From Planctomycetota bacterium (GTDB taxonomy: Bacteria > Planctomycetota > Planctomycetia > Pirellulales > Thermoguttaceae), in the NCBI GenBank assembly GCA_029550925.1, contig JAKPGL010000068.1, positions 1 through 56,723 on the forward strand: a stretch of DNA of 56,723 nucleotides, given 5' to 3'. The notes below the pieces were generated by a model. That model was given only the letters and a program-made list of their open reading frames with translations. It was not told the DNA's origin and did no database searches. Position numbers and translations under genes: made by a program. Numbering within the stretch: the stretch's first letter is position 1; the number at the start of each line of letters is the position of its first letter. Of this stretch, positions 25,538 through 28,133 are shown piece by piece.

Positions 25538-26068
25538 TTATTCCTTTTTTTTCCCTTCGGCAGGTGGTTCCTCATCCTCCATATCCTCTAGGGCGGAAAG
25601 CATTTCGACAAATGTGGCCACAAACGGATTGCCCAGTTGTTCCATAAAATCCTTATCCTGCGCCATGGCCTTGGCCATCTCCACGATGTCCACGTCTTCC
25701 TCCACGTCTTGGGCTTCTTCCTCCCCCAGCATGGAGGGCAAAAAGGAGAAGATGTGTTGGCGGACCTTGACCGCCGCGTCGTTAAAGGCCGAAACCAAAA
25801 GGTCTTCGATCAATTCCCGATCTTTTTTCTCCAACAGTTCCGGGGCCAATTGGCATTGGCGCACACACATCATGCCGTCCATTTCGATCTTGACCAAACC
25901 GCCCCCCGAACGGCCCCAGACGCTGATTTTCTCGAGTTGGCCGCCGACCAGGAGGAGTTGTTCCTCCAGCTCGTCATCCGGAGCGTCCAAATCTACTCGA
26001 GGCGGAGGCGAAACAGGGCGGGATTTTTTCGACTTCGACTTCGACTTCGACTTCTTTTTCGGGGACAT
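25538..26068 (-). CDS. YbaB/EbfC-like nucleoid protein with extended ends
   Basis: 176 residues, ATG at 26068 after AAGGAG. The central part matches YbaB/EbfC (GGLVKIEMDGMMCVRQCQLAPELLEKKDRELIEDLLVSAFNDAAVKV), a dimeric DNA-binding protein, and the position between dnaX and recR is the classic one. Unlike ordinary YbaB (about 100-110 residues) it has a basic N-terminal tail (KKKSKSKSKSKKSRP) and a long acidic C-terminal extension (GEEEAQDVEEDVDIVEM ... EDMEDEEPPAEGKKKE). The basic tail could add DNA contacts; the acidic tail may be regulatory (inference). It lies 36 bp after dnaX, so it is co-transcribed. Confidence 0.85.
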   Translation of the reverse strand: MSPKKKSKSKSKSKKSRPVSPPPRVDLDAPDDELEEQLLLVGGQLEKISVWGRSGGGLVKIEMDGMMCVRQCQLAPELLEKKDRELIEDLLVSAFNDAAVKVRQHIFSFLPSMLGEEEAQDVEEDVDIVEMAKAMAQDKDFMEQLGNPFVATFVEMLSALEDMEDEEPPAEGKKKE

Positions 26069-26104: not shown

Positions 26105-27949
26105 TCATTCCTGCTCTGGCGGTTCCGGCAGGCTCAATTGCACCGGTTGCGCGCCGAACAAGTCGATGGCCTTTTGTACAAAGGCTCGCCGCTGGACCTC
26201 CGCCAATCGCTCTTGGTAAGAAGAATCTGTCGGCGGCGAACTCGGCGGCTTTTCGGTTTTCGCTTCGGACGTTTCGGCCAGTTGAAACGACACCTGCACC
26301 CGATAGCCCAGCAGTTCCTCTAACGCCTTCTCGAATCGGGCCAATTGCTCCGGCCGTTCGCAGAACGCTTTCGATACAGTATAGGCCGGATCGAAATAAA
26401 TCACCAGACGAGTTTCGCTCGACGCCGCAATCGAACTAAAATACCGACCGTGTTCTGCGACAATTCCTCCCACTCGCCGTAAAACCGCTTGCCAGATTTC
26501 AGCGGCGTTGTCCGGGCCTAGCTTTTGCCATTGGGAGGACTTAGGTCTTCCCGAAGGGGTTACGGCCTCTTCGTCCGATGTCTGCTCTGGGAGGGACTCT
26601 TTTTTTTTTGCCAAACTCTCCTCCTCCAAAGGCCCGGAGGAACCCCTCGAGGCGGCGGGAGCCTGCTCTTTGGATAACGGCGGCGCGGTTCGGCTCGCGG
26701 CCGAGCTTTCGGGAATGGTCCATTGTCCGCCGGATCGCATCGCCGCAATCAACTCCGAAAGCGATTCCAAGTTCTCCAACTGGCAGATGCGAACCAAGGC
26801 CAACTCCGCTAAAATGCGTCCTTGGGTGCTAAACTTCATCCGGCCCAACGTGTGATCCACCAGTTGCACGATCGCCAGCAAGGTTTGCAGTCCAAGCCGA
26901 CCTCCCGTCTGGATCACCTGATCGGCCATGCGGGAAGAGGTATAAACGAACATCTGGGCGGGGCACCCTAAGACCGCCGCCATGCAATCCCGAAAATAGC
27001 CTAACATCTGTTCCAATAAAATGGCGGGGTCCACCCCTTCTTGAATCGCTGCATCCAGCTCCGCCAGTGCCCCGGCCGCATCTCGCTCGATCAGCCGACC
27101 CACCAAGGCCGCCATCCGTTCGTCCCCGGCGGCGCCCAACAGCTCGTGTACATCTTCTAACGTGATCTTGCCTGGGGCAAAGGCCAGCAATTGTTCCAGT
27201 AGGGATTGGGCGTCCCGCATGGACCCGGCCGCCCGACGGGCGATCACCTCCAGGGCCTCCGGGTCCGCTGACACATTCTCTGACTCCACGATCTGTTGGA
27301 GCCGACGCAAAATCGCCTCCGTCCCGATACCCGCAAAATCAAACCGCTGGCAACGGGACAAGATGGTGATGGGGATTTTGTTCGGCTCGGTGGTGCAGAA
27401 GATGAATTTCACATGCTCCGGCGGTTCTTCCAATGTTTTGAGCAAGGCATTAAACGCCTCTTTGGTGAGCATGTGGACTTCGTCGATGATGTAGATTTTG
27501 AATCTTGCCCGGCTCGGACGCACATTGACGTTCTGCCGCAGGGCGCGTATCTCTTCGATCCCCCGATTGCTGGCGCCGTCGATCTCCAGCACATCCACAT
27601 CATCGCCGGTGCTGATGGCCTGGCAGATGTCGCACTGATTGCACGGTTGGGGGCTTACGCCCTGTTGGCAATTCAGGGCCTTGGCGAAAATCCGAGCCGT
27701 CGATGTTTTCCCCACCCCCCGGGCGCCGGTAAATAGATAGGCGTGTCCCACCCGGCTGGCGCTGATGGCGTTGGCCAGGGCCTTGGCCACATGTTCCTGA
27801 CCCACCAGGTCCTCAAACCGTTGGGGTCGATATCGGCGGGCGACGACGATGTACCCCCGCTGCTTGTCCCCAGCTTGGGCCTCTGGAGGGGGCGGTTCCG
27901 TCAAGGGACGCCCCTTCTTGGCCGGTCCACCAACGCCTCGTTCCACCAT
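26105..27949 (-). CDS. dnaX: DNA polymerase III subunits gamma/tau
   Basis: 614 residues, start at 27949. The clamp-loader ATPase is intact: Walker A at 75-82 (GARGVGKT), zinc module Cys94, Cys103, Cys106, Cys109, Walker B-like IYIIDEVHML, and sensor 1 region FIFCTTEPNKIP. Domain III ends near residue 390; a Ser/Pro/Glu-rich linker follows, then a C-terminal part from about 480 that would be specific to tau. A run of ten A's lies at codons 447-450 (described separately) and may generate a short gamma form. The SRP RNA gene is just upstream and ybaB, recR and rpoN follow on the same strand. Residues 1-35 form a Pro/Gly-rich extension before the usual ARRYRPQRF start. Confidence 0.97.
   Translation of the reverse strand: MVERGVGGPAKKGRPLTEPPPPEAQAGDKQRGYIVVARRYRPQRFEDLVGQEHVAKALANAISASRVGHAYLFTGARGVGKTSTARIFAKALNCQQGVSPQPCNQCDICQAISTGDDVDVLEIDGASNRGIEEIRALRQNVNVRPSRARFKIYIIDEVHMLTKEAFNALLKTLEEPPEHVKFIFCTTEPNKIPITILSRCQRFDFAGIGTEAILRRLQQIVESENVSADPEALEVIARRAAGSMRDAQSLLEQLLAFAPGKITLEDVHELLGAAGDERMAALVGRLIERDAAGALAELDAAIQEGVDPAILLEQMLGYFRDCMAAVLGCPAQMFVYTSSRMADQVIQTGGRLGLQTLLAIVQLVDHTLGRMKFSTQGRILAELALVRICQLENLESLSELIAAMRSGGQWTIPESSAASRTAPPLSKEQAPAASRGSSGPLEEESLAKKKESLPEQTSDEEAVTPSGRPKSSQWQKLGPDNAAEIWQAVLRRVGGIVAEHGRYFSSIAASSETRLVIYFDPAYTVSKAFCERPEQLARFEKALEELLGYRVQVSFQLAETSEAKTEKPPSSPPTDSSYQERLAEVQRRAFVQKAIDLFGAQPVQLSLPEPPEQE
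26600..26627 (-). promoter_or_regulatory. dnaX: probable programmed frameshift/slippage site in dnaX
   Basis: On the minus strand GGAGGAGGAGAG (26627-26616) precedes GCA AAA AAA AAA GAG, that is ten A's at 26609-26600. Reading after a -1 shift stops at 26541 (about 469 residues in all); after a +1 shift it stops at 26560 (about 462 residues). In E. coli dnaX an A-AAA-AAG site with a Shine-Dalgarno-like stretch about ten bases upstream makes gamma by -1 frameshifting, and in Thermus thermophilus dnaX a run of nine A's causes transcriptional slippage. Position and context match both. Confidence 0.75.
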
Positions 27950-28024: not shown

Positions 28025-28133
28025 GGCCCCCAACGGGAGGCCCACTACACATGGTTGTCTTGCTTATGGCTGCTGACTTTCGTCCCTGACCAGGTTCACA
28101 AGTCCCCATTGTAGGGGCCCCCCGTTGGAGGCC
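28025..28133 (-). ncRNA. ffs: signal recognition particle RNA, bacterial small type
   Basis: 109 nt on the minus strand, 75 bp upstream of dnaX. The ends pair in a helix of about 19 bp (GGCCTCCAACGGGGGGCCC with GGGCCTCCCGTTGGGGGCC, including G-U pairs). The conserved Ffh-binding domain IV is visible: ACCTGGTCAGG, then GAC-GAAA-GTC, then AGCAGCC. This equals the E. coli 4.5S core GGTCAGG...GGAA...AGCAGCC with a GAAA instead of a GGAA tetraloop. After the 3' end come gaac and TTTTT, consistent with intrinsic termination. The gene sits near dnaX in many bacteria. It binds Ffh to target nascent membrane proteins. Confidence 0.93.

Follow-up and report, generated by a model that had tools for sequence, protein, structure and literature searches.

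In the window analyzed here, by which is meant the whole stretch of 56,723 nucleotides, a contig of a planctomycete assembly of 4.9 Mb in 233 contigs (97.5% complete), the gene dnaX carries ten consecutive adenines in its coding strand. The question that this locus raises is whether the run is a programmed site, from which a short gamma-like DnaX would be made besides the full-length tau-like protein, or a by-product of the peptide that it encodes, and, in the first case, whether it is the RNA polymerase or the ribosome that would slip on it. The answer that we hold with good confidence, from comparison of sequences, is that the run would be a programmed slippage site of the RNA polymerase, of the Thermus type, giving gamma besides tau.

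The dnaX gene of the window and its run of ten adenines

The elements on which the question turns are the following:

26105–27949, minus strand: dnaX, 614 aa, tau-like full-length clamp-loader subunit (open reading frame, TIGR02397, Pfam)
26616–26627, minus strand: GGAGGAGGAGAG, Shine-Dalgarno-like stretch, six bases upstream of A10
26600–26609, minus strand: A10, candidate slippery run, GCA AAA AAA AAA GAG (A-K-K-K-E), codons 447–450 of 614
26560–26562, minus strand: TAA in the +1 frame, after a 12-residue tail, closing the predicted 462-aa product of an A9 mRNA
26541–26543, minus strand: TAA in the −1 frame, after a 19-residue tail, closing the predicted 469-aa product (A11 mRNA or −1 ribosomal shift)

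The gene is identified by TIGR02397 (453.7 bits against a cut-off of 250) and by the Pfam families PF13177, PF22608 (the lid), and PF12169 (domain III); the match to the last of these stops at residue 401, so that the run sits in the linker. The first-pass annotation had been right in the coordinates and codons of the run, in the stops that it located near the run in both other frames, and in placing the site at the border between domain III and the tau-specific part. In gene order, dnaX is preceded by the SRP RNA and followed by ybaB and recR. The first of these neighbors is a small bacterial SRP RNA (RF00169, 63.6 bits; 28029–28125, minus strand), directly upstream of dnaX, and in the coding strand of ybaB, near its stop codon, there is a run of eight adenines (25545–25552, minus strand), the end of YbaB being GKKKE.

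On the reading that we prefer, the RNA polymerase would stutter on A10 and release dnaX mRNAs with fewer or more adenines. Those with ten, or with ten plus or minus three, would give the 614-aa tau-like protein (with A7 or A13 the long frame is regained); in the others translation would end 12 or 19 codons downstream, and the result would be a gamma-like protein of roughly 462 or 469 aa, the products predicted by number of adenines being 462 aa for A9, 463 aa for A12, 469 aa for A11, and 468 aa for A8. Such a product would keep the ATPase, the lid, and domain III, and lose the C-terminal tau-specific part. We infer that the agent is the polymerase and not the ribosome, that both proteins would be made, in some ratio, and that gamma would play a role in the clamp loader.

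In the whole assembly, on either strand, the dnaX run is the only A10 or T10, and the sites of A9 or longer are nine in number: the dnaX run and eight A9, two of which are identical sequence close to contig ends. When codons are resampled for the same peptide, the probability of a run of at least nine in the dnaX of the window alone is 0.10, a value that leaves some room for the idea that there is no recoding, and that the run is what results from a lysine-rich linker peptide written in AAA codons. The single gene of the window is thin evidence for a programmed site and does not decide the matter; it is the comparison with other genes that makes the case strong.

The run in the dnaX genes of the class

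Besides the genome of the window, 2 genomes of the genus, 34 of the family, and 23 of the order were searched, and the dnaX genes compared were 66 of the order, 46 of the other orders of the class, which we take to be Planctomycetia, and 51 of the other classes of the phylum; the class set comprises 112 genes (66 + 46), of which at least six are cut short by the end of a contig. Left out of the counts were G018 and G058 (paralogue-level matches only), L002 (a paralogue), G131, G134, G141, G147, and G148 (paralogue-level or fragmentary matches), and L073 and L079 (repeats of L035 and L043). L153, which had no tblastn match, entered via its long frame, and where a gene has two runs, the counts of stops and register use the last.

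A run of nine or more adenines is found in the linker of 45 of the 66 genes of the order, 36 of the 46 of the other orders, and 3 of the 51 of the other classes. In the class (n = 112) the longest run of the linker is A9 to A11 in 81 genes (A9 in 54, A10 in 26, A11 in one), A8 in one, A7 in two, and A5 or less in 28, a distribution that has a gap and not a slope, with a sharp threshold at nine, and outside the linker none of the 112 genes has a run of nine or more (maximum 8). Beyond the run the linker is hypervariable in sequence and in length (58 order members displayed), and both same-genus relatives have A10 with flanks that differ. The site is more conspicuous still where A-runs are scarce in the genome: that of one relative (G013, a 2.4 Mb assembly estimated as 68% complete) contains just one A9, and its dnaX has an A9 run. 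An extra scan of contigs for dnaX provided 12 loci, six from Bacillota, none of which has A7 or longer, and six from planctomycetes, among which two are apparent duplicates of sampled genomes, one (L182) is truncated, and two of the three others have A9 or more.

These counts bear directly on the idea of a by-product. It is true that the runs of the 39 listed order members encode KK or KKK together with a neighboring residue, and that KK or KKK persists in the linker of five of the 31 class genes lacking the run; but resampling the codons of each gene for the same protein, according to its own usage, leads one to expect 6.99 runs against the 81 found, in 24 of those 31 genes KK is altogether absent from the stretch, and the stops near the run, described below, go beyond what the downstream peptide yields in both frames. 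We consider it very improbable that the run is only the trace of its peptide.

The five genes that lack the run and keep a lysine cluster in the linker are L042, L097, L125, L130, and L135, and these clusters may be decayed sites or merely peptide; in two further genes without the run a lone KK sits in the apparent C-terminal domain. The linkers of L097 and L130 show the peptide AKKK without an A-run, perhaps as decayed slip sites. The first-pass annotation had held that relatives with no run at this place would speak against the idea, and the class gives both outcomes, 31 of the 112 genes without the run and 81 with it. On a FastTree phylogeny of DnaX domains I–III with 110 class tips (without two of the 112 genes, whose residues in the columns used were too few), the state of the run changes at least 21 times, gains and losses being counted together, and with shuffled tip labels (1000 shuffles) the mean is 26.4 changes and the minimum 20; the run is labile, and follows descent weakly. 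GC content was considered as the cause of its absence and set aside, as third-position GC overlaps widely between genes with and without the run.

The site also occurs in other arrangements. One genus is represented by five sampled members, and four of these (L087, L089, L090, and L092) have two runs three bases apart, an A9 first and then an A9 or A10. In two genes the form is inverted, with a zero-frame stop soon after an A10 and the tau domain in the −1 frame: L178 (at codon 447), from a MAG named Rhodopirellula sp., which is outside the 112, and L155 (at codon 385), from G117, of another class; the −1-frame tau part matches the C-terminus of the window protein by blastp with E values of 1.4e-25 and 9.6e-7, respectively. 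In both, tau would need a slip, although an assembly error in the run is possible. Separately, the dnaX of L163 (G152) stops at codon 417 and is followed in another frame, with no A-run, by a frame of 180 aa whose similarity to the tau domain is weak (best E 8e-5 to the C-terminus of another dnaX, with none to that of the window).

The inverted genes may differ from the usual form by a single base of run length, or be errors, and this brings in another explanation, in which the run would be a hypermutable homopolymer, toggling tau between cells by phase variation, or else an error of assembly. The consulted passages of PMC1088944 deem such runs likely to be hypermutable by replication slippage; however, the frames would then scatter, and yet past the run the long frame is open in 81 of 81 genes (at least 107 codons in 80 of them, and 41 codons up to the contig end in L151), and the near stops in both frames are not accounted for either, so that we give this explanation hardly any credit.

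Polymerase or ribosome

After the run, the first stop in the −1 frame comes at a median of 2 codons, against 27 at control positions of the linker, and the first in the +1 frame at a median of 5, against 22, while the GC content downstream of the run equals that of the linker (0.623 and 0.622). With the downstream protein fixed and the codons of the 81 genes resampled 300 times, a −1 stop within 10 codons is found in 72 of the 81 genes against a resampled mean of 35.9 (maximum 46), a +1 stop in 65 against a mean of 23.0 (maximum 36), and stops in both frames in 59 against a mean of 10.3 (maximum 17). Stops enriched in both frames are what slippage would lead one to expect; a pure −1 shift needs no +1 stops. 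Those of the window, at 12 and 19 codons, lie farther away than most of its relatives', the window and its two congeners spanning 12–25 codons.

The explanation that has to be weighed against polymerase slippage is a programmed −1 ribosomal frameshift of the E. coli type on A_AAA_AAA, perhaps aided by GGAGG, which would give the 469-aa gamma. The −1 stops are the nearest ones, as in E. coli, and any run of nine or more contains an in-frame A_AAA_AAA. The run occurs in all three codon registers (52, 24, and 5 of the 81 genes), and we dropped the register as proof against a ribosomal shift, given that any register of A9 or more holds that heptamer. The sequence A_AAA_AAG is present in 17 of the 81 class genes with the run, although absent in the window. 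On the other hand, six or seven adenines would suffice for a −1 shift, and yet, of the 84 genes whose linker holds A7 or longer, 81 reach nine or more, and the enrichment of +1 stops would be superfluous.

As regards stimulators, GGAGGAGGAGAG six bases upstream of the window run would suit a ribosomal shift, and the first-pass annotation had taken its GGAGG for a possible stimulator, which should then be conserved along with the run while the neighboring codons drift. The run is indeed kept amid drifting neighbors, in 81 of 112 genes; GGAGG is not, as a Shine-Dalgarno-like tetramer lies upstream of the run in 6 of 81 genes against 8.4% of control positions. With such motifs not enriched in the class, a conserved stimulator of this kind was rejected, and the stretch in the window is probably incidental; in both congeners a comparable stretch almost abuts the run.

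Nor is a structure evident on the 3′ side, where none had been obvious to the first reading: in the window, the folding of 70 nt is unremarkable (z −1.24, with 28 of 200 shuffles as stable or more), and over six 30-nt offsets the class mean z goes from −0.26 to −0.04, the strongest lean, a slight one with a mean z of −0.26 against shuffles, being just downstream of the run. A downstream stem-loop was not accepted, the folding being weaker than in other segments of the linker. A hairpin of the nascent RNA upstream of the run was also considered, and rejected: its significance against linker segments (P = 2e-5) is gone against dinucleotide-preserving shuffles, where the mean z of −0.18 to 0.17 reflects composition.

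The tRNAs point the other way. Among 44 tRNA loci found by ARAGORN in the assembly (97.5% complete) there is one tRNA-Lys, with anticodon UUU, and no CUU isoacceptor; the argument for slippage from two lysine tRNAs was thus abandoned, a single tRNA-Lys(UUU) being the state of E. coli and one that would suit a −1 shift.

Polymerase slippage is favored by the threshold at nine, by the indifference to register, and by the stops in both wrong frames. The preference of the first-pass annotation for the polymerase gains from this threshold and these stops, and also from the scarcity of A_AAA_AAG and the lack of evident 3′ structure. A ribosomal shift by itself is, in our view, unlikely, although polymerase slippage and a ribosomal shift may act together.

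Relation to known systems and meaning for the class

Transcriptional slippage in the dnaX of Thermus thermophilus was reportedly described by Larsen et al. in 2000. As in Thermus, the planctomycete gene has tau in a single frame, an A9-type run, near stops in both off-frames, and a predicted short product without the tau-specific part; in contrast, it belongs to a different phylum, and slippage has been measured in Thermus and inferred here. The consulted parts of PMC1088944 and PMC5009743 give nine adenines and stops in both other frames for the Thermus gene, which in the literature consulted is the measured case of such decoding in a replication gene, and those of PMC5009743 give Thermus two lysine tRNAs, unlike the one tRNA-Lys(UUU) found here. 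With E. coli dnaX the window shares the gene, the border region, the expected pair of gamma and tau, and a Shine-Dalgarno-like stretch upstream, but its run is of ten adenines without A_AAA_AAG, with no conserved Shine-Dalgarno motif and no evident 3′ stem-loop, and in the class the stops are enriched in both frames.

A third system is the dnaX in two open reading frames, which PMC3711429 describes in 17 genes of 12 genera, with poly-A in 12 of the 17. The poly-A is shared with the window, and L178 and L155 have this organization, whereas in the window gene and in 80 other run-bearing genes of the class a single frame encodes tau. Nine of the two-frame genes have ten adenines, and two Planctomycetes genomes are tabulated in the same paper; its text on dnaX and Planctomycetes names no planctomycete dnaX, the organisms of the nine genes being given in the supplement. 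Within open-licence PMC, supplements aside, no report of dnaX slippage in planctomycetes was found. The frameshift of Blochmannia dnaX in a poly-A tract, placed downstream of the E. coli site in the consulted part of PMC3017870, is a separate matter from the planctomycete run. According to the parts consulted of PMC1088944, a run of nine A or nine T with length conserved among homologues is very likely purposeful slippage, and slippage that ends in a truncated product is difficult to predict from comparisons.

The planctomycete dnaX run would be of the slippage kind known from Thermus, and seems to mark much of the class. For Planctomycetia as a whole we lean, with less assurance than for the window gene, toward the view that two DnaX proteins would be made via polymerase slippage, with the length of the run and the stops in both frames under selection, the site having been lost or rebuilt about twenty times, doubled in one genus, and occasionally flipped so that tau needs the slip. 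Annotation of open frames alone would yield tau only, and codon resampling at constant protein sequence, with the stops in both wrong frames counted, offers a usable test for truncating slippage. A class whose members differ so often in having the site would provide natural replicates, both for asking why a short DnaX is kept and for the length of A-run that the planctomycete RNA polymerase needs in order to slip.
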